Shown in pieces: positions 18,435 through 54,600 of a stretch of 64,000 nucleotides of DNA (positions are counted from its first letter, which is position 1; the number at the start of each line of letters is the position of its first letter). The notes below the pieces were generated by a model. It had not been told where the DNA came from. It was given only the letters and a program-made list of their open reading frames with translations, and made no database searches. The stretch covers positions 14,573,666-14,637,665 of the forward strand of contig OY979723.1 in assembly GCA_963855995.1 (NCBI GenBank), read 5' to 3'. The position numbers and the translations under genes were made by a program. Source of the stretch: Muricea muricata. Lineage: Eukaryota; Cnidaria; Anthozoa; Malacalcyonacea; Plexauridae.

Positions 18435-18439
18435 TAAAG

Positions 18440-18609: not shown

Positions 18610-18617
18610 TGCTCTCT

Positions 18618-19530: not shown

Positions 19531-19553
19531 GGTGAATATTTTGTGCAAGTGTG

Positions 19554-21062: not shown

Positions 21063-21862
21063 AACCTGAGAACTTTGCGTTGAACTCGGCCCAGGCCTCC
21101 ATATGGATGTTGATTTAATGCGGTCACATTTGATTTGGCGGCCATTTTTGAATTTGTCTTTTGCACAACATGAGCTCCGCCGGATGGCTGCCTTGAAGAC
21201 GATTGAGACGCTATGTATGTATTCCGTTGTATTTGTTCATCAGTTGTCCATTTACTTGTTTAAATATTGGTAATTGTGTACGATATTTGTTTCCGTTTAT
21301 TTGTATAACTTTCACCGTGGTTGTACGAATTAAAAAGTGTTTAATTTCGTGTTCTTCGGAGGGTGTTGAAAAAAACTATCAAAAATAGGTCGGTTTCTTG
21401 AACAGGAGAAGCGAAAATGACCGATTTCGTTAGGGAAGAACGTTAACCGGACGAAAATGTTGAGCCTTCTCGTAAATCTCAGTTTCGACGGGAAGTTTTA
21501 GGCTTATAGCCGATGTCCTTGCTGTGCACGTGGACAGGGAGAATTTAGCTATCTGAAGCGAATCCTTCAATTGATCGAAAAAATATGTCAATTATAGGTA
21601 ATGCTGTCTTTGAAATGAATGATTTTAACTTTGTATTTTAAGGACAACACAGTACTGATGCGAAAACAAGTTGTGTTCGCATTTCTTGTTCAAACCGCCT
21701 CGTAACCTAATTTGCAACAAGAACTTATATATTTTCTGTTTATTATATAAACTACAAGTGTTTTCTACCAATATAAAATATCCACAAGCTATGTTGATGA
21801 TTGTTTGAAACGCAATAATTTTCACATGTGAAATTATCATAAATAATCTGCTACATAAATAA

Positions 21863-22381
21863 GCAGTGCTCTAGCGCGTTTATTATACAATCTACAGAAA
21901 TCATTCTTTTGTAGGCGGAAAGACCAGGCTTTTAGCTTTCGATTGTCGTCGTTTTTGTGAAATTTGAAGAAAGATTGGGCAGATACGAATCAAATGAAAC
22001 TAGCCGGTCGAAATCGCATATTTTCACCTCTGAGCATTACTAGGGCAGCGAATAAGGAAAGAAATTTCATTAATCCTTTATCTGTTAGGAGAAACAATTA
22101 ACATCGCTAATAGAATACCAGAAGTTTACTAACTAAGCTAAAATTAGTCAATTAATTTTGTAATTTAATTCCCTAATGGGTTTAAATTTCAACAGATTCT
22201 CAATAAACTCCCAACGGTGAAAATATGCGATTTCGACCGGCTATTTTCATTTGATTCGTATTTGCCCAATCTTTCTTCAAATTTCACAAAAACGATGACA
22301 ATCGAAAGCTAAAACCCTGGTATTTCCGCCTGCGAAAGGATAATTTCTGTAGATTGTATAATGAACACGCTAGAGCACTGC
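21863..22381. mobile_element. Foldback element, copy 2
   Basis: Same element as at 13832, with arms 21863-22027 and 22216-22381. It differs by a handful of substitutions and came with the segmental duplication, not by a new insertion. Confidence 0.85.
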
Positions 22382-23149
22382 AAAAATCGGTGAAGGCCGT
22401 GAAGAAACATTCTAGTAGGGTTAACAGGCCTTGAATTCAGCAGAAGCCATTGGCCATCAATACCCTGCTTGCTGGTCACTATGGTGAAATCCAAGGCCTG
22501 GGACTTAGTAGCTTTTCTAATATTTTAGGTTTGGATCAAGATATCTGAGTGCTCAGTATCCTCAAAGTCGAAAACATTTATTCAGGTTGGTGAACTGGCC
22601 AATTTATGCTTGCTACAGTAACAGCGATCGAAGCTGTGTAGATGTATCATATAGAATATTAGTGCTCATACAGAATTACATTACAGAATTTATTTGACTT
22701 TATATCTCTTTGTTTATTATAGATTGCAATAATTGTCAATATTGAAGTTGTTTCAAGGTTGATTATGGTGGTGTTGTTGTATAAATCTTGTGTAGCATGC
22801 AGTTTATCAAAATTCAAAAATACAGCACCATAAACTCATCAATGTCCTAGCTTCACACAACTTCCATTAAAGTTGTGAAAATTAAAAATTTTACGTTTTA
22901 GGAACTAAACCTAATTGTTCTGTTAATATTTTAGGTTTGGATCAGGTATTCATCATTGGATGACCCTAGCCATTCCCCCACTGCACTAGGCAGTCAAGTA
23001 TTTTTAAACCTGCACATTTTTTTGTTTGGCCAATTTTTTGTATATTTTTTACAACATATACATGCTACTGCATGCCTTCCATCCTCATCAAACAGGGAAT
23101 CATTTTATGTTGCCGTCATTTGCAGCAGCCACAAAAATTCATATATCTA

Positions 23150-24590
23150 TAGGTACATTAGGTACTATAGGTACTATTGGTACTATAGGTTTTATAGGTA
23201 CTAAAGGTTTTATAAGTACTGTAGGTCTTATAGGTACTACAGGTTTTATAGTTACTATAGGTTTTATAGTTACTATAGGTACTATAGTTTTTATAGGTAC
23301 AATATGTTTTATAGGTACTGTAGGTTTTATAGGTACTATAGGTTTTATAAGTACTATAGGTTTTATAATTACTATAGGTACTATAGGTTTTATAAGTATT
23401 ACAAGTTTTACAGGAACTATGGGTTTATAGGTACTATTGGTATTATAGGTACTATAGGTCTTTTAGGTACTATAGGTATTATAGGTTTTATAGTTAGTAT
23501 AGGTACTATAGTTTTTTAGGTACTATAGGTTTCATAGGTACTATAGGTACTATAGGTTTTATAGTTACTATAGGTTTTATAGGTACTATATTTTATTGGT
23601 ACTTTAGGTAGTATAATCTTTATAGGTACTATAGGTTTTATAGGTACTATAGGTTTTATAGGTACTATAGGTTTTATAAGTACTATAGGTTTTATAATTA
23701 CTATAGGTACTATAGGTTTTATAAGTATTACAAGTTTTACAGGAACTATGGGTTTATAGGTACTATTGGTATTATAGGTACTATAGGTCTTTTAGGTACT
23801 ATAGGTATTATAGGTTTTATAGTTAGTATAGGTACTATAGTTTTTTAGGTACTATAGGTTTCATAGGTACTATAGGTACTATAGGTTTTATAGTTACTAT
23901 ATTTTATTGGTACTTTAGGTACTATAATCTTTATAGGTACTATAGGTTTTATAGGTACTATAGGTTTTATAGGTACCATAGGTTTTATAAGTACTATAGG
24001 TTTATAGGTACTATAGGTCTTATAAGTACTATAGGTTTTATAGGTACTAAAGGTTTATAGGTACCATAGATGGTATAGGTTTTATAGGTACTATAGGTTT
24101 TATAAGTACTATAGGTATTATGGGTTTTATAGGTACTATATGTCTTAAAGGTACTATAGGTTTAACAGCTACTATAGGTTTTGTAGGTACTATAGGTTTT
24201 GTAGGTACTATAGGTTTTATATGTACTACATGTTTTATAGGTACTATAAGTACTACAGGTTTTGTGTAGGTACTGTAGGTGCTGTAAGTTTTATAGGTGC
24301 TATATGTTTTATAGGTACTATAAGTTTTTTAGGTACCATAGGTTTTATAAGTACTATAGGTTTATAGGTACTATACGCTTTATAAATACTAAAGGTTTTA
24401 TAGGTACTGAAGGTTTATACGTACTATAGGTCTTATAAGTACTATAGGTTTTATAGGTACTATAGGTTTATAGGTACCATAGATGCTATCGGTTTTATAG
24501 GTGCTATGGGTTTTATAGGTACTATGGGTTTATAGGTACTATATGTTTTATAGGTACTATAGGTTTTATAGGTACTACAGGTTTTATAAG
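23150..24590. repeat. GGTACTATA microsatellite, copy 2
   Basis: Same 18-bp theme as copy 1 but 180 bp shorter. It has its own internal duplication of the block containing the AAGTATTACAAGTTTTACAG variant (about 23388 and 23724), at a different spacing from copy 1, so the arrays were reshuffled after the segmental duplication. Confidence 0.95.
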
Positions 24591-25495
24591 TTATGGTGGA
24601 TGTCGTGAATATGGTGAATTGTTTGGGCAATTTAGTGGATATCGAGTCCCATGTAAGTTTGCCTAGTGAATATCACTTGAGTTAAAAAACAAAAGAAATA
24701 AGTTTGTGATGATCATAAATTTATGTAGGTTTTACATCAAATTTTAGGGGGTCTATTGGAATGGTGGACTGATTCGTTGTCTTGGTCAAATATACATTGC
24801 ATTGGATATGAAATTCCTGGTAAGTTTTCCATGGTGAAAAGGACTATATTTTTCTGGAAACAAACTAAATAATAACTTTATGATGATAGTGGCATATGGT
24901 GATGTCGTGCGTTGCATATGGTGAGTCGCCTGGGAAATTGGTAATATGGTGTACGTCAAGTTTTGAGTAAGTTTGCATGGTGAATATCACTATCACTATA
25001 GTTAAAATTCTAAAAACGAAATAGATAAGTTTGTGATGATCATAAATTTATGCAGTTTTTCCACCAAATTTTAGTTGGTCTAGTGGAATGGTGGATTGGT
25101 TCGTTGTCTTGGACAAGTATAGATTGCAGTGCATAGGAAGCTCCTGGTAAGTTTTGCATGGTGAATATAACTATATTTCTCTAGAAACAAACTAAAGAAT
25201 TACTTTATGATAATAGTGGCATGTGGTGATGTGGTGTGTTGCATATGCTGAGTCGCCTGGGCAAAATTGGCAATATGGTGAATATGAAATTCCTGGTAAG
25301 TTTGCATGGTGAGTATCACCATCACTATAGTTAAAATTCTAAAAGCAAAGTCAATAAGTTTGTGATGATCATAAATTTATGTAGTGTTTCAACCAAATTT
25401 TAGTGGGTCTAGTTGAATGGTGGATTTGGTGGTTGTCCTGGACAAATATACATTGCAGTGGATATAAAGCTTCGGGTAAGTTTTTGATGGTGAAT
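24591..25495 (+). repeat. GTAAGT module array, copy 2
   Basis: Six modules in the same order and spacing as 16739-17640, with scattered substitutions (for example GAGTAAGTTT in place of GGGTAAGTTT near 24966). All donor-like GT dinucleotides are kept. Confidence 0.85.
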
Positions 25496-25928
25496 ATAAC
25501 TCGAATAATTGTCAATTATTATTATAGAGTAAAACTGGGAAAGCGATACATGAGCTTGTGAATATTTTTCTCAAAAACCCTTGCCAGTAATTCCTGTTTT
25601 GATTTAGCAAAGCGAGTATTGTTGGAATGCCTGATAATTCTCTCTTTCAAAGCCTTTTTTCTTCTCAATTGTGATGCTGAAATAGATTTAGACTTTGACG
25701 CAGTGCATACATGAGACGTTCATGTAACTGCTTACCTGTAAAAACTCATACTAACAGTGCTAAATTGGACCTGTAATATAACTGATTGAATAAAACGGAC
25801 GGCATTGACATTTGATTGATTTTTTCTTGTTTTAGTACATGAAGATACGTTTTGTTAGCTGATCCAATGGTTCCGTGTTGCATAAAGCAGTAGAGCATTT
25901 TAACTCAGGTAGAATATGTTTCTGTCTA

Positions 25929-26286
25929 CACAGCCAAAAATGCGACAGGCTTGTTGCAATTTGTCAATTTTACCGGCTTCTCGCAAATTGTTGAGAAGTT
26001 GCAACAAGATTGTCAATGTCATCAAGTTGCAACAAGCTTGTCAAAGTCAGGCTTGCTGCAACTTGTCACCTGGAGACTTGTTACAGCTTTTTGAAACAGC
26101 TTGCATCAAGCCTGTGGATAACAAGTTTTGAGAATAAACTTGCAACAAGCCAGTTGACAACTTGCAACAGACTTGTCGTCAACAAGCCGTCGCAAGCCAT
26201 GCGAACGCATCCTGATATCGGCTTGTTGAAACAAGTTGTTAATAGATGTCAACAGACTTGTTTCAACTGGTGCGTTTTTGGCTGTG
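25929..26286. mobile_element. MITE built of TTGCAACAAG dyads, copy 2
   Basis: Same length as copy 1 (358 bp), TA flanks at 25927-25928 and 26287-26288, few substitutions. Confidence 0.85.
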
Positions 26287-26291
26287 TAAAG

Positions 26292-26461
26292 GTGGCGGAT
26301 CCAAGGTAAGTCAAAATAAATTATAGCAGCTCTACTCGAAATTCAAAAACAACTTTATAAAAATGTCATAGGTTATGACTTTGAAAATAATAAAATCTAG
26401 GCAATGAAGTTGCTTTGAATGAGCTGTGGTGATTTATTTTGACTTGCACTAGATCGTCCAC
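26292..26461. mobile_element. MITE with GTGGCGGATC ends, copy 2
   Basis: 170-bp counterpart of 18440-18609. Confidence 0.72.
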
Positions 26462-26469
26462 TGCTCTCT

Positions 26470-26652
26470 AGGCTGAGGTGGTTATTGAAATCAGAAAAAA
26501 AAGTGAATCGGTTTTGCGGTTACTTCGGTTTTGCGGTTATTTCTGTTAGATGACTATTTCAGCTAGTCGGTTATTTGAAAATAGCGAAACCGGAGTAACC
26601 AATATTTAAGAAAACCGGCTCAGTCCGGTGAACGAAATAACTGCCTCAGCCT
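26470..26652. mobile_element. 183-bp MITE with perfect 10-bp direct repeats, copy 2
   Basis: Starts AGGCTGAGG and ends CCTCAGCCT, flanked by identical ACTGCTCTCT at 26460-26469 and 26653-26662. This copy shows the target-site duplication most clearly. Confidence 0.9.
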
Positions 26653-26982
26653 ACTGCTCTCTACGTTGATGGACGTACAAGCCCATGTGAGCACACGATA
26701 TTCAAGATAAGATAATATAAGATATAGGATATAAGATAATAACATTGGAGGACATATTGCGGCCTATTGTTGTTCTGAGGTGAACGGGCGGCTGTTTCTT
26801 TAATGATGCGTAATCGTACATTCGGAGAGGCCTGGGCCCACCTGTCCGGTGCACTTTTGCCATTGTTGGGTTACGGGTCGTTGTGAATCTTGGGATATAT
26901 GATAAGCTGCGATGTTAAATTCAATGTTGTTATCCTTAATAAGCGGAGAGCTATAGCGGAAAGCTATTGCTGTGCGCTATAA

Positions 26983-27083
26983 TGTTGTGGCAGGATGGTA
27001 CGTTGTGAAACGGAGTATTTCAATAAGACACGACATGAGCAAATGATGCAGTTTATTAAATTGTTCCTCCCTGCCACAACAAC
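26983..27083. mobile_element. Small inverted-repeat element, TGTTGTGGCAGG ends, copy 2
   Basis: Counterpart of 19129-19229 at the unit offset of 7,854 bp. Confidence 0.5.
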
Positions 27084-27196
27084 GTCGTTAGGAAATCGTG
27101 GATATCGTGGGATCATATTGGTTTGTAGGATCATCGATTATAATAATGTGCTGTCGTTAGCATTGCTAATTATGTAAATGGTCGACCATAACTCTC

Positions 27197-27385
27197 GTAC
27201 TTTGAATTTTAAACTTGTAACCTTACTATGCTTGTAAATTAGTGCATAGGCTTTTGAATGCGTCCTGTCGGGGGACTCTGTAACATCTCGGCCCGACCCA
27301 GGTTTCCTTGCAAGGTGAGGTTTTTCCTGGCCTCCCGGTGTTGCAGAGACTTAAATAAATGATTGAATTGTATTGTATTGTATGG
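27197..27385 (+). mobile_element. Retroelement 3' tail with ATTGT repeats, copy 2
   Basis: Counterpart of 19343-19530, with tandem ATTGT units ending at about 27383. Confidence 0.6.
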
Positions 27386-27389
27386 TGGA

Positions 27390-27856
27390 TATTTTGTGCA
27401 AGTGTGCAGGATCATAGTCGATATGTTGACTCAGAATTTCAATTCTGGTATAATATACTCAGCTTACGCTATTTTGACTATTTCTGCCTTGTATGGAACA
27501 ATTGTTCGATAACGCAGAGAATGAGTTTGCAACAGGGCAGCAAAGGTCTTCACAGGGGATAGTTATGATGTCCCATCGGAACAAGTACTTGCAAAGTTGA
27601 GATGGAAAAGCTTAGAAGAAAGGCAGGAAATTAAGTTGACAAATACATGAGCCAAGTTACAGAGGGAGACTTTCCAGAAATACTTTCTAATGTATTTGAA
27701 AAATGTAACCACGAAAAAAATAATCTAAGAAGTAATGGTAAACTTCTAAAGCTTCCGTCAGTAGTTCAGGACAATAGTGGAGAAGCTTATCAGATATTCT
27801 ATTTGGCCAGTTGCTTTAGTTTTACAGAGTTTCTTCAAGAGAGAACAAACAATTGA
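27390..27856 (+). pseudogene. LINE reverse-transcriptase C-terminal remnant, copy 2
   Basis: This copy preserves more of the upstream part: NILSLRYFDYFCLVWNNCS, matching the LILPYFDYC..VW block of LINE reverse transcriptases, then after a frame change CNRAAKVFTG, SYDVPSEQVLAKL and SLEERQEIKLT, then another frame change and ILSNVFEKC, NNLRSNGKLLKLP. The second break is one A missing from the run at about 27641 relative to copy 1 (TTGACAAATACATG against TTGACAAAATACATG). Three frames are needed to follow the protein, so it is inactive. Confidence 0.82.
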
Positions 27857-28089
27857 TGAAGTTGTCGGCTTTAATTCTAAAATTGTGATTGCATGTATGC
27901 TTCCTCTCTACACTGTTAAATACACTGTTCCATGATCATGTTTTAAACATACTTGTCCACCACTAAATACTGTACATCCTGAATGTTATTAGTAGAACGC
28001 AGCTAGAATAACTAGCTTAAAACTTCCTTATTATATAAAAGTAATACAATATATTTCCTACCGCATTGCATGACAGAGCATGTGAGCAT

Positions 28090-28345
28090 GTTGCAAATGA
28101 CCCTAAAACCCCATAAATAGCCCTAAATGACCCTAAATAATCCTAAAAAATTCGCAAATGATCCTAAATAACCCTAAAAACCCCTAAATAACTCCAAATA
28201 ACCCTAAATAACGCTAAATGGCCATAAAAAACAATAAATAAACCTAAAAAGCCCTAAATTACCCTAAATATCTGTAAATGACCCTAAATAACTCTAAATA
28301 ACCCAAAATATGCCTTAGTGACCCTAAATAACCTAAATAAACCTT
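28090..28345. repeat. Degenerate CCCTAAATAA-type array after unit 2
   Basis: About 25 imperfect units, mostly CCCTAAATAA and CCCTAAAAAC variants, C-rich on the plus strand. Confidence 0.85.
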
Positions 28346-30293
28346 TCATTATTTAATATATTTAAATATTGCGAACGATCCTGATAAATGCTCGGTTTGT
28401 AAAGAGCAAGGTGTGTGATATATACTAGACATGTGCCGTATCTGTGCAAAGAGGCTCCCACAATCTTTAGAGTGTAGCTGTACTAAAGTAGATAAATACA
28501 TACGCATTTGTTGTAAAATCTACGCGTTTGTTGTTAAATACGTAAAACGATAAAGTAAAATTGTTGTCGTTGCCATATTATTTTAAAGATAATTCCTGTG
28601 AAATGTGTTTTTAATTGTGGATTTATCATTCATTGGAGAGTCGACATGGAAAATTCCAAACCGTGCTTGCCATGTGGTGACTGTCTTTTCATAGCTGGCT
28701 TTTCATGTCAAGATTAAAAAGGTAATTTACTTTCCTTGTAGGTTTTATTTCTGCAAAGTATAGGTGGGTTTATATGCCTTTATGAACAGGAATGGCGTTG
28801 ATGATGCGTTTCAAATTTAGTGAATCAACTTTAAAATAAATTAATTGTGCAGAAAACGAATATATGAATAGCTCCCCCCAACATACTGCACAAGGGACCC
28901 GACTGTTTGCCTCATGGTTCATATTTCATACTTCAACTTATAAGATATGTTGATTTACAAAATCAATTTAAATTGACTGTATTGAATTAAAGATGTTTCT
29001 GTTCTTTTTGTAGAAAAGAGTGTAAATGTGAATAATAGAAGGAATGCTTCATCAAAGTGCTTCGAAAGCGCGAGTGAGTTTATATACTGTCAGTAATGAG
29101 TAGCGTAGCCAGCTTCGATAATTGGAGGGGTGAATATTCATATATTTGTGTTCACAGACCTTAAAAACAATGGATTTAAAAAGAAATTAATGATGCAAAA
29201 CATGATACATGAATATTCGCCCCTCCAATTATCGACGCTAGCTACGCCACTTTCAGTAATTTGGTTTGCCGAATTTTCGACCCTAGAGTTTTTCCAAAAT
29301 TCCACCCCTTTCTCCACTTAGGAATAAGAGAACGGCCCTCGGCATGTGGTTGTTTTTTAATGGTTGGGTTTTGTTGTAAAGGTTACTTAGGTGGGTAAAT
29401 TATGACAAAATGAGTTTACATAATGCTCATTGTTTTGCTTTGTATTAGCCTTTTGTTTTCTTTGACATTTCTATAGTGTTAATGAGGTTTCGGCTTATTT
29501 ATTCATACTTATGTTGAGAAATGCAAATGAAGTCACATGTTTCTGACATCACAGGGGAGACAGTCGTCACAGAACATTTTATACATCGTGCTGGCAGCAA
29601 TGGAAATAAGAGTCTTTTAGAACGTATTTCGTTCTTCAAATGGCGATTTTATGGCTTTTATGTTGGCTTAAACCAAAGTAGGATGATGATTGTTGTTACT
29701 TAGAGGTAGTTTATAATTTTTTGTGGCAAAATTGTGTTTGTAATTGTTGTTTTAGGTTCTCCTCGATACATAGATTTGGAAGGACGGTCGCCATATTTAA
29801 ATTTGTCATTCTTGTAGGGCGTGTACAATAGCGATGGTCTTTTTAGTAAAGGTAATTTACTTTTCCATAGCTTTTATTTGAGTAAAGTATGGGTTGGTTG
29901 GTTCGTTCACGTTTTAAATGTTCTTTTAGCATTTGGTGAAGATGGCAAGATATGAGTTGTGCTTGCTCTTCAATGTAAAGACTATTGTCTGGGAAGGTAA
30001 TTTACTTTCGTTGTGGCTGTTATTTGAGTAAAGTATACCTTTTTTCAGTAATCGTAGATTATGATGTGGTAGAAATGTGTTTCTAAATGTGGGTTTACGT
30101 TTTGTTGCAGAATCGAGATGGTAAAGTTTCGAACGGCCATCGCCATGTGGTTGTGTTTTAAAGGCTGGCTTTTATTTTGAAGGTAACATAAGTAGGTAAA
30201 TTATGAAACAATGAGTCTATATAATGTTCATTGTTTTCCTTTGTATTTGCCTTTTGCTTTCTTTGTCATTTCTATGGTATTGATGATGTTTTG
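28346..30293 (+). repeat. Diverged members of the 810-bp exon-like repeat family
   Basis: 28370-28500 resembles 42755-42873, and 28560-28700 resembles 43685-43795. The part from 29470 to 30290 is a diverged single unit of the family amplified at 44400-48484. It has the same ordered blocks: one with AGTCGTCACAGAACATTTTA near 29560, TTTTAG-GTTCTCCTC to AGTAAAG-GTAATTT (29756-29849), CTTTTAG-CATTTGGTG to GGGAAG-GTAATTT (29928-29996), and TTGCAG-AATCGAGATGG to TTTTGAAG-GTAACAT (30111-30180). A MITE interrupts it at 29098. At 30293/30294 it joins a segment homologous to 14808. Confidence 0.75.
29098..29252. mobile_element. 155-bp hAT-type MITE with 8-bp target-site duplication
   Basis: Inverted ends GAGTAGCGTAGCCAGC and, read inward from the right, AAGTGGCGTAGCTAGC continue as matching arms through TCGATAATTGGAGGGG and GAATATTCAT, about 40 bp each. 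TCAGTAAT flanks it at 29090-29097 and 29253-29260. Ends close to CAGTGGCGTAGC with an 8-bp duplication are typical of non-autonomous hAT elements. A 63-codon frame inside is incidental. Confidence 0.9.
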
Positions 30294-38897: not shown

Positions 38898-39345
38898 GGA
38901 TATTTTATGCAAGTGCGCACGATCATAGTCGATATTTTGACTCAGAATTCAGAATTTCAATTCTGGTATAATATACTCAGTTTACCCTATTTTGACTATT
39001 TCTGCCTTGTATGGAACAATTGTTCGATAACGCGGAGAACGAGTTTGAAACAGGGCATCAAGGGTCATCACAGGGGATAGTTAGGATGTCCCATCAGAAC
39101 AAGTACTTGCAACGTTGAGATGAAAAACCTTAGAAGAAAGGCACGAAATTAAGTTGACAAAATACATGAGCAAATTAATAGAGGGAGACTGTCCAGAAAT
39201 ACTTTCTAATCTATTTGAAAAATGTAGCGACGAAAAATATAATCTAAGAAGTAACGGTAAACTTCTATGGCTTCTGTGAGTAGCTCAGGACAATAGCGGA
39301 GAAGCTTATCCGATATTTTATCTAGCCCAGTTGCCTTAGTTTTAC
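38898..39345 (+). pseudogene. LINE reverse-transcriptase C-terminal remnant, copy 3
   Basis: The upstream block NILSLPYFDYFCLVWNNCS is well preserved. The downstream part has in-frame stops (TAG in the SYDVP motif near 39082, TGA in place of the conserved Gly-Trp near 39116, TGA near 39276). The three copies decay differently, so the insertion predates the segmental duplications and none is active. Confidence 0.8.
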
Positions 39346-39574
39346 AGAGTTTAATTCGAAAATTGTGATTGCATGTATGTTCCCTCTCTACACTGTTAAA
39401 ATACACTGTTTCATGATAATGTTTTAAACATACTTGTCAACGTCTAGATACTGTACATCCTGAATGTTATTAGTAGAACGCAGCTAGCATAACTAGCCTA
39501 AAAGTTCCTTACTATTTAAAAGTAATACAATATATTTCTTACTGCATTGCGTGACAGAGCATGTGAGCATGTCG

Positions 39575-41040
39575 CCAATGACCCTAAAACCCCATAAATA
39601 ACCCTAAATGTGCGTAAATCACCCTAAATAACCAAAAAAAGCCCAAAATTAGCTCCAAGTGACCTTAATTGGCCCTAAACAACCATACATAACCCTTAAA
39701 AACCCCTGAATAACCCTAAACAGCCCTAAATTACTCTAAATAACCCTAAATGACCCTATATAACCCTAAAAACCCTGAAAAACCCTAAATATCCCTAAGT
39801 GAACCTAAAAAACTCTAAATAGGCCAAACTAACCCTAAATAACCGGCAATATCCATAAATCAACCTGAGTAATCCTAAATAACCCTAAATAATCGTGAAA
39901 ACCTCTAAATTACCTTAAATAAGCTTAAATAACCCTACCTTACACTAAATAACTCTAAATAACCTTAAATATAGCCTTAAATTACCCTAAATAAGCCTAA
40001 ATAGCTTTAAATTATCGTAAATAAGCATAAATAAGCTTAAATAACCCTAAATGATGCTAAATGATCCTAAATAACCCTAAATAACTGTAAGTGACCCTAA
40101 ATGACCCTAAATAAGCCTAAATGACCCTAAAAACTCTTAAATAACCCTAAATAACCCTAAATGATGCTAAATGATCCTAAATATCCATAAGAAATGCTAA
40201 ATAACCCTAAATAGCCTCAAATAATCTTAGATGACCATTAATGACCCTAAACGACCCGAAATAACTATAAATAACCGTGAATAAACTTGCATGACCCTAA
40301 ATAACCGTAAAAACCCTTAATGACCCTAAATAACGCTAAATGTTCGTAAATATCGTTAATTAATTGGAAGTAACCCTAAGCTATCCTAAATAATCCTAAA
40401 TGACTGTAAGTATTCCTAAGTAATCCTAAATAACCATAAATAACCCAAAATCACCGTAAATGACCCTAAATAACCCTAAGTGTGCCTAAATATGCCTAAA
40501 TAATTTTAAATAAGCCTAGATGACCCTAAATGACCCTAAGTGATTCTAAATCACCATAAATAACACCCGAAAGTCATAAGTAATACTAAATAAAGCTGAA
40601 TGACCCTAAATAAGCCTAAACAACGCTAAATATCCCTAAATAATCCTAAATGACCTTTAATGACCCAAAATGACTGTAAATAATCCTAAGAAATCCTGAA
40701 TGACCGTAAATAAGCCTAAATAATCGTAAGTAACCCGAAATAACCTTAAATAACCCTAATCGACCGTAAATTACTCTAAATGATCCTAAATAACCCTAAA
40801 TGAGCCTAAATAATCCTGTGCGACCCTAAGTAACCCTAAATAACGGTAAATACATCTAAATGACCGTAAATAACTTCAAATAACGCAAAAAACCCTTGAT
40901 TACCCTCGATTACCCAAGATTACCCTGAGTAACCCTAAATAAGCAAAATAACCTTAAATAACCTTAAGTAAGGTTAAATAACTCAACAGTATTCTAGATT
41001 ACCTTAAATAAGCCTAAAGAAACCTCAATAACACTAAAAC
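39575..41040. repeat. 1.5-kb degenerate CCCTAAATAA-type array
   Basis: About 140 units, mostly of 10 bp (CCCTAAATAA, CCCTAAATGA, CCTAAATAAG and similar), C-rich on the plus strand. This is the largest of four such arrays. It follows directly after the shared unit end GAGCATGT at 39570. Confidence 0.92.
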
Positions 41041-43085: not shown

Positions 43086-44399
43086 TTGTGGCTCTATATT
43101 TTAACTTCTTTGGAGAAATGCAAATGAGTTCACGTGTTCAACGTGTTCAACGTCACAAACCGGACACATCACAGAAAAGTTTTTACAACGTGTTGGACCA
43201 TCGTGAAAGACAGACGTGCGAAGTTCGTTTAGAGTTTTTTTTTTCAAATCGCTGATTTTATGGCTGCTTAAAAGCTGAGAAGAACGTTGATTGTTGTTGT
43301 TTGAAGGTAATTTGGAATTTTTAGTCCCTAAATTGTCTTTGTAAATGTTGTTTTAAGCGTGTGTTGGCGAAGGTAAATTTAGAAAGGACGGTCGCCATGC
43401 TTGAATTTGTCGTTCTTGTAGGCGTTTGTTGTACTTTGTTGCTCGCTTTGAGTTGAAGAATGACTGTCTTCGAAGGTAATTTGCTTTATTTGCGCAAAAA
43501 ATTATCGTGGTTGCGTTTGTAAATGTTGTTTTAAGCGTGTCTTGGCGAGGGTAAATTTAGAAAGGACGGTCGCCATGTTTGAATTTGTCTTTCTTGTAGG
43601 CGTTTGTTGTACTTTGTTGCTCGCTTTGAGTTGAAGATTGACTGTCTTAAAAGGTAATTTGCTTTATTTTCGGTAAAAAATTATCGTCGTTGCCATATCA
43701 TTCCTGTGAAATGTGCTTTTAATTGTGGATTTATTTTTCATTCGAGAATCGAGATGGAAAATTCCGAAGCGTGCTTGCCATGTGGTATCGTTTGAAGGTA
43801 ATTTGGCATTTTTAATCCCTAAATTGTCTTTGTAAATGTAGTTTTAAGTGCATCTTTGCTTTGAGTTGAAGATTGACTGTCTTTGAAGGTAATGTGCTTT
43901 ATTTGAGCAAAGTATAGGTTTTTAAATACCTAAAACGATAAAGTAAAATTTCCCTGGGACTAAATGAAGCGTAAAATAATTTTGAGGTCGTGAAATGAGT
44001 CAAAGTTTAAAATATAAAAACAATCGGTTGCTGATTGATCGAGATTTTTGTTTCACAAAAATATGGGATTTATTTTTGTATAATATATCTTTTTATGGAT
44101 AAATACTGAAAGCATTGTAATTTTGGTTGTTTTATAATTTATAATACGAGTTTATTCATTTAATTTCTAACAAGTGGGATCAGGATTTAGTATTGTTGTA
44201 TTTGTCATTGCCATGTTTGAATTTGTCATTGTTGTAGAGCGTCTTTGTAGTAAAGGTAATTTGAGTTGTGGTTGGCTTTCAATGTAAAGACTATTGTCTG
44301 GGAAGGTAATTTATTTTCTTTGTGGCTGTTATTGAACTAAAGAATGCCTTGTTTCAGTAAGCGTAGATTGTAATGCAGTAGAAATGTGTTTTTAAATAT
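43086..44399 (+). repeat. Diverged exon-like blocks before the 810-bp array
   Basis: Contains block-like segments of the same family, including a ~178-bp tandem pair (starting about 43349 and 43527) with TTAGAAAGGACGGTCGCCAT in each, and repeated AAGGTAATTT donor-like ends (about 43304, 43473, 43652, 43796, 43888). Order and spacing are less regular than to the right. Confidence 0.7.
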
Positions 44400-47300
44400 G
44401 GGTCTATCGCTAGATGTTGTTGTGAGGGTAAAATAGGCGGGTAAATCATGACAAAATGAGTTTATAAAATGCTCATTGTTTTCCTTTGTATTAGCCTTTT
44501 GTTCTATTTATGGTATTAATGACGTTTTTGCTAATTTATTCGTAGTTGTGTTAAGAAATGCAATTGAAGTGACGTGTTTTGAAGATTATAAGGAGCCAGT
44601 CGTCGCAGAAAATTTTATACATCGTGCTGCAAGGAAGGGAAAGGAGTCTCTTTTCGTAGGTATTTTGTTCTTCAAATGTATGCTTGCTTTAGGCAAAGTA
44701 GAAGGTTGATTGTTGTTACTTAATTTGTAATTTGTAATCTTTCGTCGCACAGTTGTGCTTGTAAATATTGTTTTAGCTTCTCGTCGAGATGTATATTTAA
44801 AAGGAAGGTGACCATGTTTGAATTTGTCATTCTTGTAGAGCACGTGCGATGGCGATGGTGTGTGTGGTAAAGGTAATTTACTTTTAGATAGCTTTTATTT
44901 GAGTAAAGTATAGCTTGGTTGATTCATTTAAGTTAAAGACGATGTTTATAGAGGTGTGTTTGGACGTTTGTAACTTATGGCGTTCATGTTTGAAATGTTC
45001 TTTTAGGATTTCGTGAAGATGGCCAAATACGAGTTGTGCTTGACTTTGAAAGTGAAGGGTATTGTCTGGGAAGGTTATTTACTGTCGTTGTTGCTCTCAT
45101 TTAACTAAAGTATACCTTGTTTAAGTAAGCATAGATTACAATGTGGTAGAAATGTGTTTTTAACTGTGGGTTTACGTTTCGTTGCAGAATCAAAATGATA
45201 AAATTTCGAACGACCCTCGCCATGTGGTTGTGTTTTAATCGCTGGATGTTGTTGTGAAGGTAACATAGGTGGGTAAATTATGCAAAAATGCGTTTATATA
45301 ATGCTGATTGTTTTCCTTTGTATTCGCCTTTTGTTCTATTTGTCGTTGCTATGGTATTAATGACGTTTTTGCTTATTTATTCATAGTTGTGTTAAGAAAT
45401 GGAAATGAACTCATGTGTTTTAAACATTATAAGGAAAGAGTCGTGACCGAGAATTTCATACATCGTGCTGCAAGCAAAAGAAAGGAGTCTCTTCAAGAAG
45501 GTATTTTAAGCTTCAAATGTATGTTTGCTTTAAGCAAAGTATAAGGTTGATTGTTGTTGCACAATTGTGCCTGTAAATGTTGTTTTAGCTTCTCGTTGAG
45601 ACGTAGATTTAGAAGGACCCTCACGATGTTTGAATTTGTCATTCTTGTAGAGCGTGTACGATAGCGATGGTCTTTGGAGTAAAGGTAATTTAGTTTTCTA
45701 TAGCTTTTATTTGAGTAAAGTATAGGTTGATTCGTTTATTTAAGTTAGACGATGTTGAAAGAGGTGTGTTTGAACGTTTGTAACTTATCGCATTCACGTT
45801 TAAAATGCTGTTTCAGGATTTCGTGAAGATGGCCAAATTTGAGAAGTGCTTGGCTTTGAAAGTAAAGACTATTGTCTTGGAAGGTAATTTACCGTTGTTG
45901 TGGCTGTTATTTGACTAAAATATAGCTTGTTTGAGTAAGCGTAGATTCTAATGGGGTAGAAATGTGTTGTTAACTGTGGGTTTACTTATTGTTGCAGAAT
46001 CGAAGTGGTAAAATTTCGAGCGACCCTCGCCATGTGCTTGTCTTTTAATCGCTGGATGTTGTTGTGAAGGAAAAATAGGTGGGTAAATTATGTAAAAATG
46101 CGTTTATATAATGCTGATTGTTTTCCTTTGTATTGGCCTTTTGTTCTATTTGTCGTTGCTATGGTATTAATGACGTTTTTGCTTATTTATTCATAGTTGT
46201 GTTAAGAAATGGAAATGAAGTCCGGTGTTCTAAACATTATAAGGAGAGGGTCGTCATTGACAATTTCATACATCGTGCTGCAAGCAAGGGAAAGGAGTCT
46301 TTTCAAGAAGGTATTTTGTTCTTCAAATGTATGTTTGCTTTAAGCAAAGTATAAGGTTGATTGTTGTTGCACAATTGTGCTAGTAAATGTTGTTTCAGCT
46401 TCTCGTTGAGACGTAGATTTAAAAGGACCCTCACGATGTTTGAATTTGTCATTCTTGTAGAGCGTGTACGATAGCGATGGTCTTTGGAGTAAAGGTAATT
46501 TAGTTTTCTATAGCTTTTATTTGAGTAAAGTATAGGTTGATTCGTTTATTTAAGTTAGACGATGTTGAAAGAGGTGTGTTTGAACGTTTGTAACTTATCG
46601 CATTCACGTTTAAAATGCTGTTTCAGGATTTCGTGAAGATGGCCAAATTTGAGAAGTGCTTGGCTTTGAAAGTAAAGACTATTGTCTTGGAAGGTAATTT
46701 ACCGTTGTTGTGGCTGTTATTTGACTAAAATATAGCTTGTTTGAGTAAGCGTAGATTCTAATGGGGTAGAAATGTGTTGTTAACTGTGGGTTTACTTATT
46801 GTTGCAGAATCGAAGTGGTAAATTTTCGAGCGACCCTCGCCATGTGCTTGTCTTTTAATCGCTGGATGTTGTTGTGAAGGAAAAATAGGTGGGTAAATTA
46901 TGTAAAAATGCGTTTATATAATGCTGATTGTTTTCCTTTGTATTCGCCTTTTGTTGTATTTGTCGTTGCTATGGTATTAATGACGTTTTTGCTTATTTAT
47001 TCATAGTTGTGTTAAGAAATGGAAATGAAGTCCGGTGTTCTAAACATTATAAGGAGAGGGTCGTCATTGACAATTTCATACATCGTGCTGCAAGCAAGGG
47101 AAAGGAGTCTTTTCAAGAAGGTATTTTGTTCTTCAAATGTATGTTTGCTTTAAGCAAAGTATAAGGTTGATTGTTGTTGCACAATTGTGCTAGTAAATGT
47201 TGTTTCAGCTTCTCGTTGAGACGTAGATTTAAAAGGACCCACACGATGTTTGAATTTGTCATTCTTGTAGAGCGTGTACGATAGCGATGGTCTTTGGAGT

Positions 47301-48484
47301 AAAGGTAATTTAGTTTTCTATAGCTTTTATTTGAGTAAAGTATAGGTTGATTCGTTTATTTAAGTTAGACGATGTTGAAAGAGGTGTGTTTGAACGTTTG
47401 TAACTTATCGCGTTCACGTTTGAAATGCTGTTTCAGGATTTCGTGAATATGGCCAAATTTGAGAAGTGCTTGGCTTTGAAAGTAAAGACTATTGTCTTGG
47501 GAGGTAATTTACCGTTCTTGTGGCTGTTATTTGACTAAAATATAGCTTGTTTGAGTAAGCGTAGATTCTTATGGGGTAGAAATGTGTTGTTAACTGTGGG
47601 TTTACTTATTGTTGCAGTATCGAAGTGGTAAAATTTCGAGCGACCCTCGCCATGTGCTTGTCTTTTAATCGCTGGATGTTGTTGTGAAGGAAAAATAGGT
47701 GGGTAAATTATGTAAAAATGCGTTTATATAATGCTGATTGTTTTCCTTTGTATTGGCCTTTTGTTCTATTTGTCGTTGCTATGGTATTAATGACGTTTTT
47801 GCTTATTTATTCATAGTTGTGTTAAGAAATGGAAATGAAGTCAGGTGTTTTAAACATTATAAGGAGAGGGTCGTCATTGACAATTTCATACATCGTGCTG
47901 CAAGCAAGGGAAAGGAGTCTCTTCAAGAAGGTATTTTGTTCTTCAAATGTATGTTTGCTTTAAGCAAAGTATAAGGTTGATTGTTGTTGCACAATTGTGC
48001 TAGTAAATGTTGTTTTAGCTTCTGGTTGAGATGTAGATTTAAAAGGACCCTCACGATGTTTGAATTTGTCATTCTTGTAGAGCGTGTACGATAGCGATGG
48101 TGTTTGGAGTAAAGGTAATTTAGTTTTCTATAGCTTTTATTTGGGTGAGAAATAGGTTGATTCGTTTATTTAAGTTAGACGATGTTTGAACGTTTGTAAC
48201 TTATCGCGTTCACGTTTGAAATGCTGTTTCAGGATTTTGTGAAGATGGCCAAATTTGAGAAGTGCTTGGCTTTGAAAGTACAGACTATTGCCTTGGAAGG
48301 TAATTTACTGTTGTTGTGGCTGTTATTTGACTAAAGTATACCTTGTTTCAGTAATCGTAGATTATGATGTGGTAGAAATGTGTTTCTAAATGTGGGTTTA
48401 CGTTTTGTTGCAGAATGGAGATGGTAAAATTTCGAAGGAACTCAGAACCGTCGGAAGACCAATGAGGAGAACATTTCGTTTAGG
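44400..48484 (+). repeat. 810-bp tandem repeat of exon-like blocks (five units)
   Basis: Landmarks recur at 44476, 45308, 46118, 46928 and 47738, so the spacing is 832 and then exactly 810 three times. The units at 46118, 46928 and 47738 are nearly identical; the first is the most diverged. Each unit has four blocks that begin after an acceptor-like CAG/TAG and end at a donor-like GTAAT or GTATT. Block starts in one unit are 199, 202, 228 and 181 bp apart, so the 810-bp unit itself looks like four ancient ~200-bp repeats. The last unit ends in GTAAGTTAA and passes straight into the next array. Confidence 0.93.
45188..45883 (+). other. Four exon-like blocks in one representative 810-bp unit
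   Basis: Block d is 45188-45259 (GTTGCAG before, GTAACA after), block a 45387-45500 (TTCATAG before, GTATTTT after), block b 45589-45684 (TGTTTTAG before, GTAATTT after), block c 45817-45883 (GTTTCAG before, GTAATTT after). Block a is 114 bp, has the same phase at both ends, and stays open in all five units, reading for example NFIHRAASKGKESLQEG. The other blocks carry stops in most frames. In later units the donor of block d has decayed (GGAAAA). Blocks b, c and d share a weak common pattern (GATTTAAAAGGACC, GGCCAAATTTGAG, GTAAAATTTCGAG). Transcription and splicing are not shown by the sequence. Confidence 0.5.
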
Positions 48485-49455
48485 TAAGTTAACTTAGCTA
48501 AGTTACTTAAGTTAAGATAGTTGATATAAGTGAAGTTACTTAAGTTAAGTTGAGTTAATTTACTTGAGTTAAGTTGAGATAAGTTAGTTCAGCTGAGTTG
48601 AGTTAAGTTACTTAAGTTAAGTTAAGTTATGTTACTTAAGTTATGTTAGTTGAGGTAATTGGCTTAAGTTAGTTGAGTTAAGTGAGTTAAGTTAAGTTGA
48701 ACTAACTTCAGTTATGTTAGTTAAGTTAATTTGGGTTAAGTTGTTTGGGTTAAGTTGTTTGGGTTAAGTTGCTTAAGTTAACTGAAGTTGAGTTAAGCTG
48801 GTCAAGTGGAGTTAAGTTGCTTGAGTTGAGTTGAATTATTTAAGTTAAGTTAAGTTGAGTTACTTAAGTTAGGTTGAGTTGAGTTACTTAAGTTAAATTG
48901 AGTTGAGTTACTTAAGTTAAGTTGAGTTACTTAAGTTAAGTTGAGTTAAGTTAAGTTAAGTTGAGTTGAGTTACTTAAGCTAAGTTGAGTTGAGTTAATT
49001 AAGTTAAGTTGAGTTGAGTTACTTAAGTTAAGTTAAGATGAGTTGAGTTACTTAAGTTAAGTTGAGTTACTTAAGTTAAGTTAAGTTACTTAAGTTAAGT
49101 TGAGTTGAGTTACTTAAGTTAAGTTAAGTTGAGTTGAGTTAATTAAGTTAAGTTGAGTTGAGTTACTTAAGTTAAGTTACTTAAGTTAAGTTAAGTTGAG
49201 TTACTTAAGCTGAGTTACTTAAGTTAAGTTGAGTTACTTAAGCTGAGTTGAGTTACTTAAGTCGAGTTGAGTTAGTTAAGTTGAGTTGAGTTACTTAAGT
49301 CGAGTTGAGTTGAGTTACTTAAGTTAAGTCAAGATGAGTTACTTAAGTTAAGTTAAGATGCGTTACTTAAGTTAAGTTGAGTTGAGTTACTTAAGTGAAG
49401 TTGAGTTCGTTAAGTGAAGTTGAGTTATTTAAGTGAAGTTAAGTTGAGTTACATA
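48485..49455. repeat. TTAAGTTGAG-type simple repeat array
   Basis: About 970 bp of GTTAA, GTTGA and GTTAC pentamers, most often as TTACTTAAGTTAAGTTGAG. It starts at the donor-like GTAAGTTAAC of the last exon-like block and decays at the right edge. Confidence 0.95.
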
Positions 49456-49641: not shown

Positions 49642-51029
49642 TTAAGCTCTTTAGACTCTTAAGCTCTTAGACTCTTAAGCTCTTAGACTCTTAAGCTCTT
49701 AGACTCTTAAGCTCTTTAGACTCTTAAGCTCTTTAGACTGTTAAGCTCTTTAGACTGTTAAGCTCTTTAGACTCTTAAGCTCTTTAGACTCTTAAGCTCT
49801 TTAGACTCTTAAGCTCTTTAGACTCTTAAGCTCTTTAGACTCTTAAGCTCTTTAGACTGTTAAGCTCTTTAGACTCTTAAGCTCTTTAGACTCTTAAGCT
49901 CTTAGACTCTTAAGCTCTTAGACTCTTAAGCTCTTAGACTCTTAAGCTCTTAGACTCTTAAGCTCTTAGACTCTTAAGCTCTTTAGACTCTTAAGGTCTT
50001 AGACTCTTAAGCTCTTAGACTCTTAAGCTCTTAGACTCTTTAGACTGTTAAGCTCTTTAGACTCTTAAGCTCTTTAGACTCTTAAGCTCTTAGACTCTTA
50101 GACTCTTAGACTCTTAGACTCTTAGACTCTTAAGCTCTTAAGCTCTTAAACTCTTAGACTCTTAAGCTCTTAGACTCTTAAGCTCTTAGACTCTTAAGGT
50201 CTTAGACTCTTAGACTCTTAGACTCTTAAGCTCTTAAACTCTTAAGCTCTTAGACTCTTAGACTCTTAGACTCTTAGACTCTTAAGCTCTTAGACTCTTA
50301 GACTCTTAAGCTCTTAAACTCTTAAGCTCTTAGACTCTTAGACTCTTAGACTCTTAGACTCTTAGACTCTTAGACTCTTAAACTCTTAGACTCTTAAGGT
50401 CTTAGACTCTTAAGCTCTTAAGCTCTTAGACTCTTAGACTCTTAGAATCTTAGACTCTTAAACTCTTAAGCTCTTAGACTCTTAGACTCTTAGACTCTTA
50501 CACTCTTAGACTCTTAAACTCTTAAGCTCTTAGACTCTTAAGCTCTTTAGACTCTTAAGCTCTTTAGACTCTTAAGCTCTTTAGACTGTTAAGCTCTTTA
50601 GACTGTTAAGCTCTTTAGACTGTTAAGCTCTTTAGACTGTTAAGCTCTTTAGACTGTTAAGCTCTTTAGACTGTTAAGCTCTTTAGACTGTTAAGCTCTT
50701 AGACTCTTAGACTCTTAGACTCTTAGACTCTTAAACTCTTAAACTCTTAAGCTCTTAGACTCTTAGACTCTTAAGCTCTTAGACTCTTAGACTCTTAGAC
50801 TCTTAGACTCTTAAACTCTTAAGCTCTTAGACTCTTAAGCTCTTTAGACTCTTAAGCTCTTTAGACTCTTAAGCTCTTTAGACTGTTAAGCTCTTTAGAC
50901 TGTTAAGCTCTTTAGACTGTTAAGCTCTTAGACTCTTAGACTCTTAGACTCTTAGACTCTTAGACTCTTAGACTCTTAGACTCTTAGACTCTTAGACTCT
51001 TAGACTCTTTAGACTCTTAAAGTCTTAAA
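49642..51029. repeat. CTCTTAGA / CTCTTAAG simple repeat array
   Basis: Mixture of 17-bp units (TTAAGCTCTTTAGACTC or ...CTG), 16-bp units (TTAAGCTCTTAGACTC) and 8-bp units (TTAGACTC), arranged in blocks: the 17-mer dominates at 49642-49890 and 50520-50700, the 8-mer at 50090-50520 and 50930-51010. The base unit is 8 bp. Confidence 0.95.
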
Positions 51030-51149
51030 CCATTTGTAGAAAAAATAATAAAATAAAAGTAAAATTAAAGTGAAGTAAAAGTAAAATTTTACTTCACTTC
51101 ACTTTAATTTTACTTTTATTTTTATTATTTTTTTTAGAAAGGGTTTAAG
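51024..51149. repeat. ~125-bp near-perfect palindrome at the telomere-side boundary
   Basis: Centre between 51086 and 51087 (GTAAAATTTTAC). The left arm reads CTTAAACCATTTGTAG, then the A-rich AAAATAATAAAATAAAAG and AAAATTAAAGTGAAG. The right arm is its reverse complement with a few mismatches and ends in CTTAAACCC sequence, which is the first unit of the TTTAAGGG array in reverse. It separates the CTCTTAGA array from the TTTAAGGG array and can form a long hairpin with almost no loop. Confidence 0.9.
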
Positions 51150-51644
51150 GGTTTAAGGGTTTAAGGGTTTAAGGGTTTAAGGGTTTAAGGGTTTAAGGGT
51201 TTAAGGGTTTAAGGGTTTAAGGGTTTAAGGGTTTAAGGGTTTAAGGGTTTAAGGGTTTAAGGGTTTAAGGGTTTAAGGGTTTAAGGGTTTAAGGGTTTAA
51301 GGGTTTAAGGGTTTAAGGGTTTAAGGGTTTAAGGGTTTAAGGGTTTAAGGGTTTAAGGGTTTAAGGGTTTAAGGGTTTAAGGGTTTAAGGGTTTAAGGGT
51401 TTAAGGGTTTAAGGGTTTAAGGGTTTAAGGGTTTAAGGGTTTAAGGGTTTAAGGGTTTAAGGGTTTAAGGGTTTAAGGGTTTAAGGGTTTAAGGGTTTAA
51501 GGGTTTAAGGGTTTAAGGGTTTAAGGGTTTAAGGGTTTAAGGGTTTAAGGGTTTAAGGGTTTAAGGGTTTAAGGGTTTAAGGGTTTAAGGGTTTAAGGGT
51601 TTAAGGGTTTAAGGGTTTAAGGGTTTAAGGGTTTAAGGGTTTAA
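51141..51644. repeat. TTTAAGGG array, 63 units
   Basis: 504 bp of 8-bp GGGTTTAA units with no visible interruption or substitution. G-rich on the same strand as the telomere, and joined to it directly at 51644/51645 (TTTAAGGGTTAGGG). Confidence 0.97.
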
Positions 51645-54600
51645 GGGTTAGGGTTAGGGTTAGGGTTAGGGTTAGGGTTAGGGTTAGGGTTAGGGTTAGG
51701 GTTAGGGTTAGGGTTAGGGTTAGGGTTAGGGTTAGGGTTAGGGTTAGGGTTAGGGTTAGGGTTAGGGTTAGGGTTAGGGTTAGGGTTAGGGTTAGGGTTA
51801 GGGTTAGGGTTAGGGTTAGGGTTAGGGTTAGGGTTAGGGTTAGGGTTAGGGTTAGGGTTAGGGTTAGGGTTAGGGTTAGGGTTAGGGTTAGGGTTAGGGT
51901 TAGGGTTAGGGTTAGGGTTAGGGTTAGGGTTAGGGTTAGGGTTAGGGTTAGGGTTAGGGTTAGGGTTAGGGTTAGGGTTAGGGTTAGGGTTAGGGTTAGG
52001 GTTAGGGTTAGGGTTAGGGTTAGGGTTAGGGTTAGGGTTAGGGTTAGGGTTAGGGTTAGGGTTAGGGTTAGGGTTAGGGTTAGGGTTAGGGTTAGGGTTA
52101 GGGTTAGGGTTAGGGTTAGGGTTAGGGTTAGGGTTAGGGTTAGGGTTAGGGTTAGGGTTAGGGTTAGGGTTAGGGTTAGGGTTAGGGTTAGGGTTAGGGT
52201 TAGGGTTAGGGTTAGGGTTAGGGTTAGGGTTAGGGTTAGGGTTAGGGTTAGGGTTAGGGTTAGGGTTAGGGTTAGGGTTAGGGTTAGGGTTAGGGTTAGG
52301 GTTAGGGTTAGGGTTAGGGTTAGGGTTAGGGTTAGGGTTAGGGTTAGGGTTAGGGTTAGGGTTAGGGTTAGGGTTAGGGTTAGGGTTAGGGTTAGGGTTA
52401 GGGTTAGGGTTAGGGTTAGGGTTAGGGTTAGGGTTAGGGTTAGGGTTAGGGTTAGGGTTAGGGTTAGGGTTAGGGTTAGGGTTAGGGTTAGGGTTAGGGT
52501 TAGGGTTAGGGTTAGGGTTAGGGTTAGGGTTAGGGTTAGGGTTAGGGTTAGGGTTAGGGTTAGGGTTAGGGTTAGGGTTAGGGTTAGGGTTAGGGTTAGG
52601 GTTAGGGTTAGGGTTAGGGTTAGGGTTAGGGTTAGGGTTAGGGTTAGGGTTAGGGTTAGGGTTAGGGTTAGGGTTAGGGTTAGGGTTAGGGTTAGGGTTA
52701 GGGTTAGGGTTAGGGTTAGGGTTAGGGTTAGGGTTAGGGTTAGGGTTAGGGTTAGGGTTAGGGTTAGGGTTAGGGTTAGGGTTAGGGTTAGGGTTAGGGT
52801 TAGGGTTAGGGTTAGGGTTAGGGTTAGGGTTAGGGTTAGGGTTAGGGTTAGGGTTAGGGTTAGGGTTAGGGTTAGGGTTAGGGTTAGGGTTAGGGTTAGG
52901 GTTAGGGTTAGGGTTAGGGTTAGGGTTAGGGTTAGGGTTAGGGTTAGGGTTAGGGTTAGGGTTAGGGTTAGGGTTAGGGTTAGGGTTAGGGTTAGGGTTA
53001 GGGTTAGGGTTAGGGTTAGGGTTAGGGTTAGGGTTAGGGTTAGGGTTAGGGTTAGGGTTAGGGTTAGGGTTAGGGTTAGGGTTAGGGTTAGGGTTAGGGT
53101 TAGGGTTAGGGTTAGGGTTAGGGTTAGGGTTAGGGTTAGGGTTAGGGTTAGGGTTAGGGTTAGGGTTAGGGTTAGGGTTAGGGTTAGGGTTAGGGTTAGG
53201 GTTAGGGTTAGGGTTAGGGTTAGGGTTAGGGTTAGGGTTAGGGTTAGGGTTAGGGTTAGGGTTAGGGTTAGGGTTAGGGTTAGGGTTAGGGTTAGGGTTA
53301 GGGTTAGGGTTAGGGTTAGGGTTAGGGTTAGGGTTAGGGTTAGGGTTAGGGTTAGGGTTAGGGTTAGGGTTAGGGTTAGGGTTAGGGTTAGGGTTAGGGT
53401 TAGGGTTAGGGTTAGGGTTAGGGTTAGGGTTAGGGTTAGGGTTAGGGTTAGGGTTAGGGTTAGGGTTAGGGTTAGGGTTAGGGTTAGGGTTAGGGTTAGG
53501 GTTAGGGTTAGGGTTAGGGTTAGGGTTAGGGTTAGGGTTAGGGTTAGGGTTAGGGTTAGGGTTAGGGTTAGGGTTAGGGTTAGGGTTAGGGTTAGGGTTA
53601 GGGTTAGGGTTAGGGTTAGGGTTAGGGTTAGGGTTAGGGTTAGGGTTAGGGTTAGGGTTAGGGTTAGGGTTAGGGTTAGGGTTAGGGTTAGGGTTAGGGT
53701 TAGGGTTAGGGTTAGGGTTAGGGTTAGGGTTAGGGTTAGGGTTAGGGTTAGGGTTAGGGTTAGGGTTAGGGTTAGGGTTAGGGTTAGGGTTAGGGTTAGG
53801 GTTAGGGTTAGGGTTAGGGTTAGGGTTAGGGTTAGGGTTAGGGTTAGGGTTAGGGTTAGGGTTAGGGTTAGGGTTAGGGTTAGGGTTAGGGTTAGGGTTA
53901 GGGTTAGGGTTAGGGTTAGGGTTAGGGTTAGGGTTAGGGTTAGGGTTAGGGTTAGGGTTAGGGTTAGGGTTAGGGTTAGGGTTAGGGTTAGGGTTAGGGT
54001 TAGGGTTAGGGTTAGGGTTAGGGTTAGGGTTAGGGTTAGGGTTAGGGTTAGGGTTAGGGTTAGGGTTAGGGTTAGGGTTAGGGTTAGGGTTAGGGTTAGG
54101 GTTAGGGTTAGGGTTAGGGTTAGGGTTAGGGTTAGGGTTAGGGTTAGGGTTAGGGTTAGGGTTAGGGTTAGGGTTAGGGTTAGGGTTAGGGTTAGGGTTA
54201 GGGTTAGGGTTAGGGTTAGGGTTAGGGTTAGGGTTAGGGTTAGGGTTAGGGTTAGGGTTAGGGTTAGGGTTAGGGTTAGGGTTAGGGTTAGGGTTAGGGT
54301 TAGGGTTAGGGTTAGGGTTAGGGTTAGGGTTAGGGTTAGGGTTAGGGTTAGGGTTAGGGTTAGGGTTAGGGTTAGGGTTAGGGTTAGGGTTAGGGTTAGG
54401 GTTAGGGTTAGGGTTAGGGTTAGGGTTAGGGTTAGGGTTAGGGTTAGGGTTAGGGTTAGGGTTAGGGTTAGGGTTAGGGTTAGGGTTAGGGTTAGGGTTA
54501 GGGTTAGGGTTAGGGTTAGGGTTAGGGTTAGGGTTAGGGTTAGGGTTAGGGTTAGGGTTAGGGTTAGGGTTAGGGTTAGGGTTAGGGTTAGGGTTAGGGT

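Follow-up and report, generated by a model that had tools for sequence, protein, structure and literature searches.

The stretch of 64,000 nucleotides of Muricea muricata analysed here (contig OY979723.1, hereafter C8; the whole stretch is called the window) forms the right end of its contig in a genome of 453 Mb, and its final 12 kb are TTAGGG telomere. On the plus strand it carries a tandem array of five head-to-tail units (44406-48426, 794-810 bp each, delimited by self-BLAST, nhmmer and alignment), which is most probably a subtelomeric higher-order satellite with inherited splice-like motifs, spread by exchange between chromosome ends. A preliminary description of this DNA had proposed that each unit is a usable series of small exons or, in a second reading, that the array is a satellite of about 200 bp in which the motifs are inherited and not used. 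The second reading gives the best fit, in view of the homology of the pieces that make up the unit, the boxes of an older lineage lying 188-209 bp apart and the subtelomeric position of the copies listed; the first is disfavoured by the loss of donor 1 in three of the five units, the faster change of the exon-like parts and the lack of an exact exon-exon junction in the searches described below. Head-to-tail copies, a location at chromosome ends and blocks common to non-homologous ends, as expected of a subtelomeric satellite, were all found; splice sites kept in all copies, or an open frame with codon-like change, were not.

As motifs, the splice-like sites were correctly described. In the unit at 45200-46009, four acceptor-like and four donor-like motifs stand where they had been placed, and the acceptor AGs at 45385, 45587, 45815, 45996 and 46195 are separated by 202, 228, 181 and 199 bp, as had been given. 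The five tandem units are likewise present, three of them of 810 bp and those at the ends of 794 and 797 bp, and so is the diverged copy that had been placed at 29470-30290, although its bounds are 29330-30122, followed by a partial unit at 30123-30292 (Table 1). The first three exon-like segments measure 114, 96 and 67 bp in all five units and 115, 96 and 67 bp in the diverged copy; the fourth measures 72 bp in units U0 to U3, and no comparable end is reached in U4 before its sequence changes. Intron-like lengths range from 78 to 134 bp among the window copies. The claim that the pattern is kept in every copy did not hold, as only 44 of the 48 dinucleotides (eight sites in six window copies) are intact: donor 1 reads GA in U2, U3 and U4, and acceptor 1 reads AC in the diverged copy.

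For a wider comparison, lineages were derived from the 86 copies that the window and 32 other stretches contain, not from all 133 matches listed in the genome; 17 short matches were dropped, eight pieces were joined into four, and the clusters, formed at 95% identity, are not independent. Over 16 lineages the exon-like lengths vary, from 78 to 129 for the first segment, 72 to 135 for the second and 36 to 68 for the third. Over 87 rows, donor 1 is GT in 39, GA in 15, AT in 10, G- in one and absent in 22, and acceptor 1 is intact in just 6 of 10 further lineages. Acceptors 2 and 3 alternate between TTTTAG and TTTCAG, the AG being mostly retained.

The regular order of the sites appears to follow largely from the internal repetition of the unit. 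When the unit was cut at the acceptors into four pieces (types 1 to 4) and these were compared in three lineages, homology of pieces 2 and 3 was seen in all three (z 6.4-9.2), that of pieces 1 and 2 in two lineages (z 5.5 and 3.7) and that of pieces 1 and 3 in one (z 5.1), so that three or more of the pieces appear to be related to a single monomer of about 200 bp. The box AAGGTAATTT, which forms the main donor-like motif, is found four times in one older lineage, at intervals of 188-209 bp. Because of the homology of the pieces, this spacing in the older lineage and the tandem pair of 178-bp monomers in the window (Table 1), the exon order is best read as mainly the spacing of one box. Sites were also scored with a generic, non-species-specific splice matrix. 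A chain of nine alternating sites was reached in none of 500 shuffles, the thresholds having been set on the claimed sites themselves; over the whole array the plus strand has a chain of 33 such sites and the minus strand one of two, with at most five in the six other stretches scanned. With the four donors held fixed and the remainder shuffled (n = 500), chains of at least eight arose in 8.2% and those of the observed length far less often (see below); the order of the sites is therefore largely, not wholly, accounted for by the spacing of the donor-like motifs.

The distribution of the unit in the genome points to chromosome ends. Used as a query, it gives at least 133 matches, and every listed one is found no more than 335 kb from a contig end. 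The array has five units on C8 and four on each of contigs C5, C6, C7 and C16, and comparison of the first, second, third and last units with their counterparts on the other contigs gives 94.3-99.8% identity; the arrays therefore look like one block copied between ends, not like the products of amplification at each of the five separately. The repeats that follow the array come in the same order on C8, C16 and C6, first the TTAAGT-like one, then that of 16 bp, TTTAAGGG and TTAGGG; no terminal TTAGGG array was seen in four other end stretches, and two further end stretches read N. Judged by eye, most copies are oriented toward the nearest contig end, with exceptions in the array at the right end of C7, the copy at the right end of C10 and, in part, the copies on C2 and C9. 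Twelve chromosome ends carry one copy each, at about 70% identity and within a larger shared segment. The 178-bp monomer as a query gives 54 matches, 49 of them without a deep-interior position. In the array, as aligned from 45300-46109 and its copies, the frequency of change at CpG columns is about double that elsewhere (2.6 tree steps, with about 1.25 in other columns), which would be expected if the array were methylated in the germ line.

The box AAGGTAATTT is a part of the unit that may be under constraint. Its occurrences at donors 3 and 4 are among the best conserved 10-base windows (Table 1), and together they give P 0.00135 by tree steps and 0.006 against CpG-free windows; the window at donor 2 ranks 81 of 765 in 16 lineages and 162 in the 14 closer lineages. 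In a 15-base form with up to two mismatches, all 17 matches in the window are on the plus strand, where 1.5 matches are expected, and the exact 10-mer occurs 18 times, one of them on the minus strand. T at +5 and +7 is invariant in 33 of 33 distinct boxes, up to six of which were picked by the motif itself. The favoured base of a splice donor at +5 is G. Neither T is required of a donor, and their invariance thus speaks for a constraint on the DNA as readily as for splicing. The P values are modest and come from related copies, and they suggest that this one box may be held by selection or recombination, perhaps through a protein that binds the DNA or through biased recombination; its use as a splice site is not implied. 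A palindromic form was tried, in which AAGGTAATTTACTTT equals its own reverse complement at 12 of 15 positions, and it was dropped because the right half varies.

Taken together, these observations would best be explained if a monomer of about 180-200 bp had diverged into several types, with homology found among types 1 to 3 and weak for type 4; if the set of four types, of about 810 bp, had been amplified in tandem by unequal exchange; and if the block had been copied among chromosome ends, where shared blocks are observed and ectopic exchange would be the means. The donor-like and acceptor-like motifs would have been inherited along with the monomers.

Several results weigh against this history or its simplest form. 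With donors fixed, the observed chain of nine or more is reached in only 0.8% of the 500 shuffles. The GT/AG positions do show an excess of conservation, whose absence the preliminary description had named as evidence against exons, albeit a weak one: the seven testable sites have 11 tree changes where 22.3 are expected (P 0.014, 87 rows), or 20.5 with CpG-free controls (P 0.035), in a test that takes in acceptor 1 and omits donor 1, a site on the edge of the alignment. Gap intervals are less frequent in exon-like parts, with nine confined to these, 24 confined to intron-like parts and seven spanning both (29 insertions not being placed in the count), with exons making up 43% of the unit. Piece 4 was homologous to piece 2 in only one of the three lineages (z 4.6) and to pieces 1 and 3 in none of them. 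Five of the 54 matches of the 178-bp monomer lie more than 1 Mb inside C16, and because of these the older monomer family is not purely subtelomeric; the 601 bp around one of them (L053) contain the same kind of modules. Lastly, in nine of nine lineages the stops in the joined exons fall below the shuffle mean, none of them significantly.

The excess at the splice-like sites recurs in ten lineages that the preliminary description had not covered, where six sites kept 51 of 52 cells (P 0.012; controls 275/307 for GT and 112/122 for AG), acceptor 1 and donor 1 having been left out after both were seen to fail. Other measures speak against use as exons. Substitution reaches 9.6% in exon-like against 7.4% in intron-like parts (14 lineages), tree steps are 1.78 against 1.32, or 1.48 against 1.10 without CpG, and the 10-base windows ending at acceptors have conservation ranks from 147 to 693 of 765. 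Spliced retrocopies of the array were also looked for and rejected as a candidate, as neither probes nor genome matches gave an exact junction. Sixty exon-exon probes against 337 kb yielded 16 matches, each with six mismatches and all at the unspliced boundary of segment 2, and the joined exons searched against the whole genome gave no exact exon-exon junction among the 149 matches listed. Two of these listed matches span junction 3-4, yet retain the intron's TTGTTGCAG without the end of exon 3; they are one unit each on C1 and C3 (L034, 3080-3260; L036, 3580-3760), without intron 4. Because TTGTTGCAG is kept and the end of exon 3 is missing, they look like deletions between short TTGT repeats, and such a TTGT deletion imitates intron loss under BLAST. 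One further match extends 17 nt beyond junction 1-2, although intron 2 follows there.

Against this background, the alternatives can be weighed with the satellite. A noncoding RNA directed toward the telomere, transcribed from the array's plus strand and then spliced into a chain of small exons, would place the sites on the strand that runs to the chromosome end, where the long chain is indeed found; it would fit the GT/AG sites above controls, the high conservation rank of two donor boxes, the retention of AG in acceptors 2 and 3 while their T-tracts vary and the fewer gaps in exon-like parts. The same sites, however, include a donor 1 lost in U2 to U4, an acceptor 1 lost in several lineages, a donor 2 at rank 81 and acceptor windows of no particular conservation, and the exon-like lengths vary in the wider set, with no exact junction among the 149 matches listed. 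Spliced RNA from the array seems to us an unlikely explanation of the motifs, and the fuller form of the idea, in which transcription proceeds toward the telomere and splicing yields a long series of small exons with sites that survived repeated amplification and exchange, is quite unlikely. The direction of such an RNA would be like that of telomeric repeat-containing RNA (TERRA), in that the strand and the course toward the TTAGGG end would fit. TERRA is not known to undergo splicing of the kind proposed here. Searches for known RNAs found no conserved family at gathering scores in 1-51700 (Rfam) and no tRNA genes in 1-51600 (ARAGORN).

An origin of the unit from part of a protein-coding gene, now degraded, whose four exons and their introns were caught in subtelomeric amplification, is very unlikely. 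Constant exon-like lengths beside variable introns among the window copies would suit such an origin, as would the single stop-free frame of segment 1 in 11 of 16 lineages, the stops below the shuffle mean noted above and a best frame of U0 with three stops in 116 codons; the lengths, however, vary across the wider set, the exons change faster, and depletion of stops in the joined exons was significant in none of the nine lineages tested (P 0.09-0.49), these being those of the 14 closer lineages with four segments long enough. No consistent period of three was seen by eye in the variability of 14 lineages, no Pfam family matched the joined peptide of two copies up to E 10, and no chain in PDB matched that of one copy. 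A spliced protein was rejected as a candidate, with no significant support from frames, stops, position variability, Pfam or PDB. Nor is it at all probable that the motifs are mere chance on a strand rich in G and T, free of any constraint. The plus strand of the array has a GC skew of 0.36 and an AT skew of -0.19, which favour GT and T-tracts, and the acceptors scoring at least as high as the weakest claimed site hardly exceed dinucleotide shuffles (10 in one unit against 8.3); donors, by contrast, exceed them clearly (7 against 2.2), and neither the P values of the two donor boxes nor the sites above controls agree with a sequence that drifts throughout.

The satellite reading has partial counterparts in known systems. 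Satellites of Meloidogyne have monomers in higher-order repeats and short motifs conserved among diverged sequences, the motifs being CENP-B-box-like and human alpha satellite being the comparison named there (PMC3694981); the box here is AAGGTAATTT, and its location is subtelomeric. The PO41 repeat of galliform birds is likewise a subtelomeric tandem repeat, although it has a 41-bp pattern and both strands were found transcribed by experiment (PMC4301066), whereas the unit here is of about 810 bp. In the parts of the literature searched, no account of this satellite was found. A box under true constraint would make the array a chromosome-end satellite that preserves one short motif despite considerable turnover, its other sequence drifting; use of the sites would mean that spliced repeat RNA is produced from chromosome ends; and if neither holds, the array warns that a satellite of about 200 bp on a G- and T-rich strand can mimic a string of exons.

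Table 1. Coordinates of the array, its relatives and the neighbouring repeats (positions in the window unless a contig is named).
Feature	Coordinates	Strand	Length	Remarks
Unit U0	44406..45199	+	794 bp	81% to U1; proximal array edge; self-BLAST, nhmmer, alignment
Unit U1	45200..46009	+	810 bp	self-BLAST, alignment, nhmmer
Unit U2	46010..46819	+	810 bp	donor 1 GA; self-BLAST, alignment
Unit U3	46820..47629	+	810 bp	donor 1 GA; self-BLAST, alignment
Unit U4	47630..48426	+	797 bp	donor 1 GA; distal array edge; self-BLAST, alignment
Exon-like segment 1, U1	45387..45500	+	114 bp	acceptor AG 45385, donor GT 45501
Exon-like segment 2, U1	45589..45684	+	96 bp	acceptor AG 45587, donor GT 45685
Exon-like segment 3, U1	45817..45883	+	67 bp	acceptor AG 45815, donor GT 45884
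Exon-like segment 4	45998..46069	+	72 bp	acceptor AG 45996; following donor (46070) GA
Box AAGGTAATTT at donor 3, U1	45682..45691	+		rank 1/765 10-base windows (16 lineages), 4/765 (14); joint 6th/739 by tree steps
Box AAGGTAATTT at donor 4, U1	45881..45890	+		rank 6/765 (16 lineages), 19/765 (14); joint 6th/739 by tree steps
Diverged copy of unit	29330..30122	+		73% to U1; self-BLAST, alignment, nhmmer
Partial unit after diverged copy	30123..30292	+		self-BLAST, nhmmer
Older relatives of unit, in pieces	43096..44406	+		include two tandem 178-bp monomers at 43338-43693, ~94% alike; nhmmer
Old fragment	28600..28771	+		segment-4-like part and donor-like box at 28719; nhmmer
Interior C16 copies of 178-bp monomer	1364074, 1908289, 6870515, 9370556, 10382544 (C16)			
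Short satellite, TTAAGT-like	48480..49451	+		5/24-bp periods; order recurs on C16, C6
16/8-bp satellite TTAAGCTCTTAGACTC	49642..51027	+		also on C16, C6
TTTAAGGG 8-bp repeat	51139..51649	+		~64 perfect copies, between satellites and telomere; also telomere-adjacent on C16, C6
TTAGGG telomere	51644..64000	+		runs to contig end

Other features of the window lie at some distance from the array. Two ORF fragments, at 19669-20065 and 39206-39436, recall the reverse transcriptase of non-LTR retrotransposons, and the two pieces searched gave no significant match in Pfam. A degenerate telomere-like repeat, AATAACCCTA, occupies 39577-41038 on the plus strand, the strand opposite to that of the terminal telomere. 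A large duplicated segment (12926-20250 and 20957-28091) consists of pieces 93-95% alike and contains satellites of 9/18 bp and 327 bp, and the region 182-12630 is made up of nested tandem repeats of about 0.6-0.7 kb inside a 3.8-kb period, 94-99% alike.

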